Source of the DNA: a virus
Length of the DNA stretch: 23,784 nt
Virus record (IMG/VR): IMGVR_UViG_3300045131_000344
Span: 1 to 23,784 of that record
Reading direction: 5' to 3' (one strand)
In this document: in pieces, positions 6,404 to 8,188 of the stretch
How the letters are laid out: each line of letters opens with the position of its first letter
How positions within the stretch are numbered: position 1 is the first letter of the stretch
Made by a program: the position numbers and the translations under genes
Notes under the pieces: generated by a model
What the model was told of the DNA's origin: nothing
Seen by the model: only the letters and a program-made list of their open reading frames with translations
Databases searched by the model: none

Positions 6404-6813
6404 CGCATAGCCTTCGAGAACGATTTGCTTTCAAAATCACGCTTTAAATCAGCCAGCTTGGCAAGGGCTTCTGACTTGATTATTTCGGTGCGTGCTCGTT
6501 GGTACTGGGTCTGCTGGCTCTCAATTTGCTTAAGAGGTTTGACAGGGATGGCAGGGCCAGCCTTGCAGGCGTTCCTGAAGGCAATGGCCGAAGGTGGCAT
6601 GTTTGGCGGCAGGAGGGCCAAGGCGTATTCGAGCGAAGGCCTGTAAGTCAGGAAGTTGCCAAGCTCTTTTTGCCAGACAGAGCGCACCAACTCAGGCTCA
6701 ACCTGCTCCCAGTGACGAGTGAAGCTGGCGCCGTAGACAGCCTGCATGTAAGCGAAGATGTAGTCCAGCCCCTCCTCAGGGGTGCAGAAATCAGTTTCCA
6801 AGTAGTTTGACAT
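6400..6813 (-). CDS. Conserved phage replication-region protein
   Basis: The product is 137 residues starting MSNYLETDFCTPEEGLDYIF. Conserved-looking segments are YMQAVYGASFTRHWEQVEPE, LVRSVWQKELGNFLTYRPSL and ALALLPPNMPPSAIAFRNAC. Proteins of this type follow the helix-turn-helix replication protein in several phage groups, a position held by helicase loaders (lambda P, DnaT-like) in other phages; that role is inference from order. ATG 6813 has GGGGAG before it and overlaps the replication gene by 23 bases. An upstream Met at 6864 would lie deep in that gene and is rejected. Confidence 0.75.
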   Translation of the reverse strand: MSNYLETDFCTPEEGLDYIFAYMQAVYGASFTRHWEQVEPELVRSVWQKELGNFLTYRPSLEYALALLPPNMPPSAIAFRNACKAGPAIPVKPLKQIESQQTQYQRARTEIIKSEALAKLADLKRDFESKSFSKAMR

Positions 6814-7501
6814 TCTTGCCACTCCCCAAAAGTCCACGAGTAAGGCCACGGATGACCTCAGCATTGCGATCGCCTTGGGTCTTGAATGAGCTTGAAGGCA
6901 CCTTGCCAGCCTGATCCTGAGCTTTGGACAGCCAAGCGTTTACAAACCGAGGGATGCCCGTAGTAGTTTTCTGCATGGTTGGGTTTGACATGGCCCAGAC
7001 CCTCATCTTCTGCAACTCAGCAACCACGTTGACAGCGGGGTACGCCTTAGACCACTCATCGGCCATCACTTGGCTGACACCAAAAACCTTGCCGCCAAGA
7101 ATTGGAACTTCGACAACCGGCTGAGAGACGCTTTGCGGCTCGACGCTTAACTCTGTCTTTGTCTCTTTCTCTATCTCTGTCTCTGTCTCTGTCTCTAGTA
7201 GATCATCTTGATATCGGGTTGATATCGCGTTGATATCATCCTGTTCCAGCCAGTGAGACAGCTTGATAAGTGATGCTTCCGTATCCTTTTCTGTCATCCT
7301 TAGACGAAAAGCCAATCTTTTGGCATCAGGAATTTTTCCGTCATCTTCACTGGCGATGAGCCAGATCATCACAAGAATTTTGGCTGACTTTGGATCAAGC
7401 TCGTGCCACTCAATGTCGTCAAGGATGTCCCTGTACAGCTTGATCCATGGTGGTTTACGGTCTTTGAAATGTTGAAACTGCGACCAATTTTTGATCTTCA
7501 T
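6791..7501 (-). CDS. Phage replication protein, helix-turn-helix N-terminus
   Basis: The product is 236 residues. The N-terminus (MKIKNWSQFQHFKDRKPPWI, then LYRDILDDIEWHEL) and residues to about 90 are a winged-helix-like module common at the start of phage replication initiators. Residues about 103-117 are a Glu/Thr repeat (ETETETEIEKETKTE). The C-terminal region (MADEWSKAYPAVNVVAELQK, then GIPRFVNAWLSKAQ) resembles the helicase-loader or primosome-binding part of such proteins. The gene contains three 11-bp direct repeats at 7208-7240, reminiscent of lambda gene O, where origin iterons lie inside the initiator gene. The ATG at 7501 lies nine bases after the U tract of a strong structured terminator, so expression is probably subject to attenuation. 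Confidence 0.8.
   Translation of the reverse strand: MKIKNWSQFQHFKDRKPPWIKLYRDILDDIEWHELDPKSAKILVMIWLIASEDDGKIPDAKRLAFRLRMTEKDTEASLIKLSHWLEQDDINAISTRYQDDLLETETETEIEKETKTELSVEPQSVSQPVVEVPILGGKVFGVSQVMADEWSKAYPAVNVVAELQKMRVWAMSNPTMQKTTTGIPRFVNAWLSKAQDQAGKVPSSSFKTQGDRNAEVIRGLTRGLLGSGKNVKLLGN
7151..7196 (-). repeat. Pyrimidine/purine hexanucleotide tract inside replication gene
   Basis: Plus-strand TCTCTG repeats are perfect three times from 7174, with degenerate units back to 7151. On the coding strand GAGACA units encode Glu-Thr repeats. Unit length is a multiple of three, so expansion would lengthen the linker without a frameshift. The tract lies next to the 11-bp direct repeats. Confidence 0.75.
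7208..7240. repeat. Three 11-bp iteron-like direct repeats
   Basis: TTGATATCGGG, TTGATATCGCG and TTGATATCATC follow each other with an exact 11-bp period (starts 7208, 7219, 7230), one per helical turn. Each has a palindromic GATATC core. They sit within the replication-protein gene, a typical place for a lambda-type origin. Confidence 0.7.
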
Positions 7502-7509
7502 AAAAATCC

Positions 7510-7622
7510 AAAAAAAAAGGGGCTACACCTGCTGTCTCGCTCTTTCGAGCGTTGGCGGACTGGCGTAGTACCAGCAGACAGCATGTGTAACCCCACTACG
7601 AAAACGCCGCCAAGCGCTATTT
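7510..7622 (-). ncRNA. Structured RNA / candidate transcription attenuator ahead of replication gene
   Basis: On the minus strand two 19-base arms (7594-7576 and 7537-7519; GGGGTTACACATGCTGTCT and AGACAGCAGGTGTAGCCCC) pair at 18 positions, one of them a G-U pair, followed at once by nine U. The 38-base loop holds two small hairpins: CTGG/CCAG with loop TACTACG (7574-7560) and CGCTC-GAAA-GAGCG (7551-7538), making a three-way junction. A second inverted repeat interleaves with the first: segments AGCG, TTGGCGG and CGTAGT at 7618-7595 complement ACTACG, CCGCCAA and CGCT at 7569-7548. The order b'-a'-b-a-U9 is that of an attenuator with exclusive terminator and antiterminator, or of a pseudoknot. 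The U-G pair becomes a C-A mismatch on the other strand, which favours the minus strand as the RNA. Confidence 0.7.
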
Positions 7623-7628
7623 TTGAAA

Positions 7629-7658
7629 ATCATATCACCCAAACAGGTCTGGGCGCAA
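7629..7658 (-). promoter_or_regulatory. Candidate promoter of the structured RNA (TTGCGC, 18 bp, TATGAT)
   Basis: On the minus strand TTGCGC at 7658-7653 and TATGAT at 7634-7629 are 18 bp apart, the same spacing and a similar -35 to promoters at 1208 and 7894. It overlaps the 3' end of the repressor gene and carries no operator copy. Predicted start is near 7622, giving a transcript of about 113 bases if it stops at the U tract. Confidence 0.45.
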
Positions 7659-7835
7659 GTCCTTACGGGTCACCAAGCCACCAGTGGCTTCTTCCAAGGC
7701 TCGTGCCAACAAAGGGCTAGGCTTCTTCTTGCGGGTGATCAGCTTGGACATCCACTCAGCACTGATCCCAAGATGCAGGGCCATCTCAATCTTTGCGCCA
7801 CGAGGCTCTTCGGAGAAGTACTGTTGCAGGTTCAT
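7635..7835 (-). CDS. Cro/YdaS-like repressor
   Basis: The product is 66 residues starting MNLQQYFSEEPRGAKIEMAL. A small helix-turn-helix domain (GAKIEMALHLGISAEWMSKL, residues about 13-32) is followed by the TGGLVTRKDLRPDL ending seen in YdaS/Cro-type regulators. It is the only DNA-binding regulator visible and lies beside the divergent control region with operators at 7851-7867 and 7894-7910, so it is the likely reader of the TTGAA-N7-TTCAA sites and should repress its own promoter. The frame is open upstream to 7982, but that would run through promoters and operators; ATG 7835 also coincides with the predicted transcript start. No larger CI-type repressor with a peptidase domain is present. 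Confidence 0.8.
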   Translation of the reverse strand: MNLQQYFSEEPRGAKIEMALHLGISAEWMSKLITRKKKPSPLLARALEEATGGLVTRKDLRPDLFG

Positions 7836-7842
7836 GCGGAAG

Positions 7843-7870
7843 AGTATAGCTTGAAGGCTGAATTCAACAA
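7843..7870 (-). promoter_or_regulatory. Repressor promoter (TTGTTG, 16 bp, TATACT), leaderless
   Basis: On the minus strand TTGTTG is at 7870-7865 and TATACT at 7848-7843. The predicted start at 7836-7835 falls on the ATG of the repressor gene, so its mRNA would be leaderless, as for lambda cI from PRM. This fits the absence of a Shine-Dalgarno sequence. The spacer is filled by operator 7851-7867. Confidence 0.6.
7851..7867 (+). promoter_or_regulatory. Operator O2 (perfect dyad), within repressor promoter
   Basis: TTGAAGGCTGAATTCAA has perfect TTGAA-N7-TTCAA symmetry and matches 13 of 17 bases of the 4354-4370 site. It lies between -35 and -10 of the repressor promoter, implying autoregulation. 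It is 43 bp from the next operator at 7894. Confidence 0.65.
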
Positions 7871-7879
7871 GCCCCTTCA

Positions 7880-7904
7880 TTCTTGTCAAGTACTTGCACA
7901 AGAA
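7880..7904. promoter_or_regulatory. Central palindrome in the divergent control region
   Basis: TTCTTGT and ACAAGAA form a perfect 7-bp inverted repeat around an 11-bp centre containing the palindrome CAAGTACTTG. It overlaps the right operator and lies between the two divergent promoters. It could bind a second regulator or be a composite operator. Confidence 0.5.
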
Positions 7905-7910
7905 ATTCAA
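7894..7910 (+). promoter_or_regulatory. Operator O4, within rightward early promoter
   Basis: TTGCACAAGAAATTCAA matches 14 of 17 bases of the 4354-4370 site. It covers the -35 and half the spacer of the rightward promoter. Confidence 0.65.
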
Positions 7911-7930
7911 GATGTGATCTAATGCACGTA
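7894..7930 (+). promoter_or_regulatory. Rightward early promoter PR (TTGCAC, 18 bp, TCTAAT)
   Basis: TTGCAC at 7894-7899 and TCTAAT at 7918-7923 (5 of 6 consensus bases) have the same -35 and spacing as promoter P1. The predicted start is A7930, one base before a CGCC/GGCG hairpin, as at P1. It would drive the operon from 7961 to about 11656. Confidence 0.75.
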
Positions 7931-7942
7931 CGCCATGTGGCG
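7931..7942 (+). promoter_or_regulatory. 5' leader hairpin L3
   Basis: CGCC-ATGT-GGCG at the predicted 5' end of the rightward transcript, then GGTTATTTGAAAGAC and the ATG at 7961. It is the third copy of the leader arrangement seen at 1159-1171 and 4330-4345. Confidence 0.55.
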
Positions 7943-7960
7943 GGTTATTTGAAAGACAAC

Positions 7961-8188
7961 ATGACGAAAGTGAAAGAAGCATACATGCAAGCCTTCCCGT
8001 TTATCGAGCCTCAAGAGGACGACAACATCAAGGCCTACCACTCTGGCATGACCATGCGCGACGAGTTCGCCAAGATTGCGATGCTGGGCATGTTTCGGTA
8101 CTGGGATGAAAACCCAGATTTGGAATTTGCGCACATCGCCGATTGTTCTTACGACATGGCTGACGCCATGCTGAAAGCGAGGAAGTGA
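7961..8188 (+). CDS. Conserved phage early protein
   Basis: The product is 75 residues starting MTKVKEAYMQAFPFIEPQED. It contains HSGMTMRDEFAKIAMLGMFR and ends ADCSYDMADAMLKARK. The GMTmRDyFAaKAM and YxxADAML elements are those of a widespread small early protein of proteobacterial phages whose function is unknown. ATG 7961 is chosen because it follows the shared TGAAAGAC leader; an in-frame ATG at 7922 overlaps the -10. It is the first gene of the rightward operon, so it should be made immediately on infection unless repressed. Confidence 0.8.
   Translation: MTKVKEAYMQAFPFIEPQEDDNIKAYHSGMTMRDEFAKIAMLGMFRYWDENPDLEFAHIADCSYDMADAMLKARK

Follow-up and report, generated by a model that had tools for sequence, protein, structure and literature searches.

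The window, by which is meant the whole stretch of DNA analysed here (23,784 nucleotides, IMG/VR virus record IMGVR_UViG_3300045131_000344), carries on its minus strand a repressor-like gene, a replication gene and, between them, an RNA of about 110 nt with its own predicted promoter and its own intrinsic terminator. The parts run in the order sigma-70 promoter, hairpin P1, PK2 5' strand, long stem P2 enclosing hairpins P3 and P4, and a U6-9 tract, and two pseudoknots join them: PK1, the P1 loop with the P3-P4 linker, and PK2, the strand after P1 with the P3 loop. The features in the window are listed below; types A to D are the four matched loop/linker pairs of the family.

7635 to 7982, minus strand: YdaS/Cro-like repressor open reading frame, 5' of the RNA (YdaS_toxin PF15943, E 1.6e-9; phrog_35)
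7653 to 7658, minus strand: -35-like hexamer TTGCGC, within the end of the cro-like gene
7629 to 7634, minus strand: -10 hexamer TATGAT, with a predicted transcription start at about 7622, the foot of P1
7604 to 7617, minus strand: hairpin P1 (GCGC-UUGGCG-GCGU), with compensatory changes in three of four pairs and 100% of cells paired
7608 to 7613, minus strand: P1 loop UUGGCG, the PK1 5' strand, invariant in type A (pattern-enforced)
7594 to 7600, minus strand: PK2 5' strand (CGUAGU plus G7594), directly adjoining P2, with compensatory changes in six of six core pairs
7519 to 7594, minus strand: long stem P2, with compensatory changes in 17 of 19 pairs
7594-7586 with 7527-7519, minus strand: P2a, the lower part of P2 and the terminator stem
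7584 with 7529, minus strand: conserved mismatch between P2a and P2b
7583-7576 with 7537-7530, minus strand: P2b, the upper part of P2
7560 to 7574, minus strand: hairpin P3 (CUGG-UACUACG-CCAG), invariant in type A (pattern-enforced), with other but still paired stems in types B to D
7564 to 7570, minus strand: P3 loop UACUACG, the PK2 3' strand, with PK2 covariation
7552 to 7557, minus strand: P3-P4 linker CGCCAA, the PK1 3' strand, invariant in type A (pattern-enforced)
7538 to 7551, minus strand: hairpin P4 (CGCUC-GAAA-GAGCG), with compensatory changes in four of five pairs
7510 to 7518, minus strand: U9 tract of the intrinsic terminator, with at least five U after P2 in all aligned relatives
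6791 to 7501, minus strand: replication protein gene, 3' of the RNA (phrog_26426, E 2.6e-16; phrog_186, E 5.6e-4)

The true start of the YdaS/Cro-like frame likely lies near 7835, and the replication gene encodes a PHROG replication protein with a weak DnaD-like helicase loader match. Within the replication gene stand three copies of TTGATATC at 11-bp spacing (window 7208-7240) and a 12-bp TCTGTCTC tandem (7148-7195), repeats which are likely iterons of an origin, in a position like that known from lambda O. Most of what the preliminary description had reported between the two genes is present, including the TTGCGC-18-TATGAT promoter and the 19-base arms enclosing two inner hairpins and followed by U9 (7518-7510), although the gap to the ATG at 7501-7499 is 8 nt and not nine. 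The interleaved order b'-a'-b-a-U9 proved not only present but conserved. Of the segments that pair b' with b, UUGGCG:CGCCAA does so in 58 of 58 aligned relatives, where the invariance of PK1 and P3 is partly due to a search pattern that fixes both, and CGUAGU:ACUACG is paired in 97% of cells. AGCG:CGCU, by contrast, does not belong to this second repeat as had been supposed: it is a chance match in the window, and in the relatives its bases pair separately in P1 and P4.

Folded from 7622 to 7510, the minus strand reaches -52.0 kcal/mol against -33.6 +/- 3.4 in shuffles (z -5.4, 0/200), and z is -7.8 without the first 28 bases; the plus strand folds more weakly (z -3.1). A scan of IMG/VR with the window's replication protein gave 80 loci, and about 35 of the 58 upstream regions examined at replication-protein loci contain this RNA, its parts in an unchanged order. 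A core pattern, CTGCTGG..CCAGTCCGCCAAC, matched at least 120 viral stretches; 110 distinct RNAs were taken from the pattern matches listed, and 58 representatives, less than 93% identical to each other, make up alignment A1. When both pseudoknots are counted in the fold, 96.3% of cells in these 58 relatives are paired (77.6% in shuffles), with 452 double-sided changes (136 in shuffles) and a covariation score of 0.503 (0.162 in shuffles), and none of 500 shuffles reached the observed pairing, double changes or covariation score. Shifting the pairing partners by 1-3 columns lowers the paired cells to 34-43%. The compensatory changes that had been proposed as a check are thus abundant, and P1, PK2, P2 and P4 each covary, PK2 with a score of 0.68 against 0.21 in shuffles, a measure that does not separate intra- from intermolecular pairing. 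Exactly one P2 mismatch, at column 40 or 41, occurs in 55 of the 58 and separates a 9-pair terminator stem from an 8-pair upper stem. On the minus strand G-U cells number 87 and A-C cells 7, which indicates that selection acts on the minus-strand RNA, the strand to which the preliminary description had pointed; for the same reason a DNA element (cruciform, att or ori hairpin) was rejected as the main reading. The likely iterons are elsewhere, within the replication gene.

The promoter and terminator are likewise features of the relatives. If a -10 hexamer must match at five or more of six positions and carry A second and T last, then 65 of 86 non-redundant relatives have one within the 20 nt preceding P1, as against 5 of 86 in a control window; most of the matches in these 86 upstream regions end 3-7 nt before the aligned start, so that transcription would begin at the foot of P1, and -35 hexamers are moderately enriched. 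At the other end, the U tract adjoins P2 with no spacing and contains at least five U in every aligned relative. An open reading frame starts 7-14 nt after it in about 150 of 177 contexts, and in a further 19 of the 177 was called 0-3 nt after it, probably an artefact of a script that prefers the longest frame. A gap of 7-14 nt leaves no room for another promoter, so that the gene could be expressed only by read-through of the terminator. In most of the 177 contexts an intrinsic terminator therefore lies between promoter and gene with no second promoter between them, which is the arrangement of an attenuator. Fold, covariation and promoter signature together sustain the earlier proposal that the leader of the replication gene holds a structured minus-strand RNA which has its own promoter and ends in an intrinsic terminator. 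One type B copy (L200, 2562-2450, minus strand) has another intrinsic terminator directly 5' of it and, unlike most copies, no recognisable promoter.

Divergent members of the family were found with covariance model R1, which has no PK1. Their P1 loops and linkers read UGGGGAG and CUCCCCA in L032, UUGGUC and GACCAA in L237, and UUGGACU and AGUCCAA in one copy at L382. By their matched loops and linkers the at least 138 distinct sequences fall into four types (105 of A, 27 of B, 5 of C and 1 of D among those found). The totals for B and C were reached with patterns requiring the pairing, but the first members were found without that requirement; the viral scans make abundance a lower bound, and the type frequencies are biased by the patterns used. 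Loop and linker swap jointly in types B, C and D, and the P3 stems differ by type and are all paired (CUGG/CCAG, GCGG/CCGU, GCCGG/CCGGU, CAUCG/CGGUG, CGGUG/CACCG); as comparative evidence, these swaps are independent proof of PK1 and P3. In each of the four types the 5' strand of PK2 runs right up to P2. Type C has an exact second copy of the P1 hairpin sequence GCTGGGGAGC just after the U tract, about 100 nt after P1. This copy overlies the ribosome-binding site of the next gene in L032, L244, L272, L295 and L340 and is missing from L315; the type C linker could pair with either copy.

The genes that follow the RNA fall into 25 sequence clusters (177 contexts) of many unrelated families, mostly of replication. 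The largest cluster, with 101 members, consists of replication proteins; the others, named by sequence inspection, include HNH and GIY-YIG endonuclease-like proteins, helicase/methylase, ParB-like proteins and small unknowns. Endonuclease genes inserted before the replication gene keep the same distance to the RNA (L034, L032 and L407). Three loci carry two copies of the RNA each, L200 and L407 with both in series and L382 with one before a leftward replication operon and one before a rightward Erf operon, and the loops differ between the copies of one phage (A+B, A+B and B+D). Varied followers, the same spacing and double copies show the RNA to be a portable leader at the 5' end of early genes, most often of a replication gene. 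Its preliminary designation as a replication-gene leader is right here but fails as a general rule, the same RNA preceding unrelated early genes. Second in frequency among the followers in the 177 contexts come HNH and GIY-YIG endonuclease genes, which keep the exact spacing, as if endonuclease gene and RNA had moved together as one cassette. No shared trans-acting phage gene was found within 4.5 kb of the RNA beyond the usual Cro-like, Erf and exonuclease genes, and a ToxIN-like binding of the RNA to its own downstream protein was rejected because the downstream proteins are unrelated.

On balance, and with somewhat better than even confidence, we favour a cis-acting leader in which a promoter, a double-pseudoknot RNA of about 110 nt and a terminator made from the same RNA form a pseudoknot/terminator switch, that is, an attenuator. 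In the presumed order of folding, P1, the PK2 5' strand, P3 and the linker would leave the polymerase first, and PK1 and PK2 would form; as the last strand emerges P2 would zip from the top, its lower half and the U tract making the terminator. The nascent RNA would thereby choose between two states. In the pseudoknotted one the polymerase would read through, with regulated expression of the gene that starts 7-14 nt downstream; in the other, transcription would terminate and a stable short RNA be released. PK2 and the lower half of P2 are expected on steric grounds to exclude each other in one molecule. The preliminary description had left a choice between competing pairings and a pseudoknot; there are two pseudoknots, and by geometric estimate PK1 looks compatible with the terminator and PK2 sterically incompatible with its lower half. 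The partner of PK2, the P3 loop, sits at the far end of the 19-pair P2, and no linker separates PK2 from P2. By a simple geometric bound, in which the thickness of the helices is left out, one backbone step would have to bridge 21-31 A, and PK2 could form only if 2-3 or more of the lower P2 pairs opened; on this crude estimate PK2 and the terminator stem look mutually exclusive in one molecule. Their base-pair overlap is confined to one nucleotide, column 31, which pairs with column 56 (PK2) or column 114 (P2), and the minimum-energy folds of nascent RNA pair b' with b at 60-85 nt and form P2 from 95 nt on. Since PK2 and the terminator stem both covary, and the geometric estimate and nascent-length folds set them apart, both states would be under selection, which implies either that the RNA switches or that PK2 joins two molecules. 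Mean bare-duplex strength is -12.1 kcal/mol for P2a and -6.0 kcal/mol for PK2; termination should therefore win at equilibrium without a stabilising factor, and read-through calls for either such a factor or rapid elongation. The strengths of PK2 and P2a showed no correlation across the relatives. Gating by translation, which had been suggested, finds no conserved reading frame in the 58 relatives: 15 of the 58 have no ATG in the leader, and the lengths and frames of the open reading frames vary. Attenuation by a leader peptide is consequently unlikely and was rejected.

The short RNA might itself be the product, a stable phage sRNA acting in trans on its own nascent copies through its loops (immunity or dosage, as with P4 CI RNA or IsrK), on a host target or on a protein, in which case PK1 or PK2 would be intermolecular. 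Such an RNA would fit the own promoter, folded 5' end and terminator, the covariation, which suits intra- and intermolecular pairing alike, the direct adjoining of PK2 and P2, which suits pairing of two molecules, the different loops of copies in one phage, and the recurrence of the type C P1 hairpin GCUGGGGAGC at the next gene's ribosome-binding site in five of six loci. It is nonetheless unlikely: in most contexts the RNA stands 7-14 nt before the start codon of unrelated genes, a placement that a purely trans-acting RNA does not need, and the phages show no other site at which the P1 core CTTGGCGG recurs consistently. The idea that this core has another fixed target was rejected, for although CTTGGCGG occurs 62 extra times (14 expected from base frequency), the positions are not consistent, and several are the same coding sites repeated in related contigs. 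We think it rather improbable that both ideas hold together, such that double pseudoknot and terminator form from the same strands and the short RNA acts back type-specifically on the leaders of incoming or replicating phages.

Were the nascent RNA to bind RNA polymerase and render it resistant to downstream terminators without an antiterminator protein, it would resemble the put RNAs of HK022, which are folded RNAs at the start of phage early transcripts that change termination and are characterised by binding to the beta' zinc-binding domain of the polymerase. The RNA does stand at the start of early transcripts, and the L382 copies on the leftward replication and rightward Erf operons recall putL and putR (PMC9378689). 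Put RNAs, however, are about 70 nt long, with two stem-loops and no terminator of their own (PMC9378689), whereas here there are four hairpins or stems, two pseudoknots and a core built into a terminator with U6-9, so that the RNA does not classify as put and this reading is very unlikely. Highly improbable, finally, is a translational regulator whose linker has two alternative partners, the P1 loop and the ribosome-binding site on read-through mRNA, the terminator only limiting the amount. The type C linker CUCCCCA is complementary to the P1 loop and to the copy at the ribosome-binding site, and UUGG opens the P1 loop of types A, B and D and usually the ribosome-binding region as well, even if the U run has a break in it (28 of about 48 cases; background, 6% TT before the Shine-Dalgarno GG). 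But UUGG arises in part simply where GG comes after a U tract, the type C locus L315 has no such copy, and the complementarity in type A amounts to four bases.

Among known RNAs, the fluoride and preQ1-I riboswitches also set an early pseudoknot against a late terminator upstream of a gene; the present RNA differs from them in having few conserved unpaired bases and followers that share no pathway. Phage c4 antisense RNA is a small phage RNA of the early control region, as is the present RNA, which has no Rfam match, c4 included. In position and logic the closest systems are P4 CI RNA and IsrK. The former is a short RNA in the leader of the replication (alpha) operon that controls by premature termination (PMC4825925), and it shares with the present RNA a phage replication operon leader, complementary leader segments and control by termination, here predicted. 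P4 CI RNA, however, arises by processing of a longer transcript and has seqA and seqC as its antisense targets, whereas the present RNA has its own promoter and terminator and holds its complementary segments inside one compact pseudoknotted RNA. For IsrK, of the Salmonella Gifsy-1 prophage, read-through of a terminator yields the mRNA of downstream phage genes (PMC4825925); promoter, short RNA with terminator and read-through into phage genes (here predicted) are common to both, but IsrK acts on translation through pairing with orf45, and the present RNA has another fold, varied followers and no Rfam match to IsrK. The fold thus differs from those of P4 CI RNA, IsrK and put RNAs alike. Rfam at gathering thresholds gave no match to any family, T-box and riboswitches included, in the window or in 10 loci, and at E up to 10 only spurious matches in the window region, so that a known RNA family was rejected as the identity; a literature search for a matching phage motif found none. 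The earlier statement that no such element had been described agrees with the Rfam results, and the RNA appears to be an attenuator-type leader in kind and new as a family.

A second, unrelated structured RNA occurs at the same kind of place (alignment A2; L272:998, L318:13226, L195:4295, L028:2580, and also L034, L036, L040, L043, L046, L049, L053, L055, L058, L060, L064, L066, L080 and L081). Its layout is GAAACANGGCUAGG-hairpin-GAAAAG-[X]-CCCCGCCUGCC-NNGUUUC-U run-[X']-start codon, where X and X' remain complementary though changing (CUCCC/GGGAG, ACACCUU/AAGGUGC, CCACC/GGUGG, ACUUGUC/GACAAGU) and, on this pattern of sequence change, likely form a pseudoknot before the ribosome-binding site. 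The hairpin loop is often palindromic (CAUG, AAUU, AGCU, GAUC), and several loci of this class gave no Rfam match at the gathering threshold. Both classes occur in one operon of a contig (L034:2334-2440 and about 2906-2990; L272:68-174 and about 998) and so are not alternatives to each other.

Among bacteria, strong matches were found in the chromosome of Polynucleobacter sp. UK-Kesae-W10, 5' of the same replication gene, and in one other genome of the same order, Burkholderiales, that is, in 1 of 186 genomes of the genus Polynucleobacter and in 2 of 399 sampled genomes of the order; the pattern scan also matched a Betaproteobacteria MAG contig (L221). No new strong match was found in 398 genomes of the phylum, and no meaningful match in plasmids. 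Being so rare in bacterial genomes, the RNA belongs to phages and is only occasionally carried by a prophage. Among GenBank phages, matches came only from two virome records, from Manatee Spring, and none with queries for other variants. The record of Limnohabitans phage DC33 (L005, PQ492659.1), a 39-kb circular phage, is classified under Inoviridae; its size and its relatives here look like those of a tailed phage, and the classification is probably a taxonomy error in the record.

Represented in uncultured freshwater phages by 138 or more distinct sequences, the family is almost absent from sequenced isolates and is not in any RNA library, and the RNA is usable as a marker for the starts of early operons in unannotated phage contigs. 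What is proposed for it is a compact and testable model in which the expression of early phage genes would be set by RNA alone. If the exclusion of pseudoknot and terminator is true, the leader would be a minimal natural switch useful to RNA engineers. If type-specific feedback is true as well, these phages would possess a protein-free RNA control of copy number or superinfection, and an interchangeable leader cassette for their early genes.
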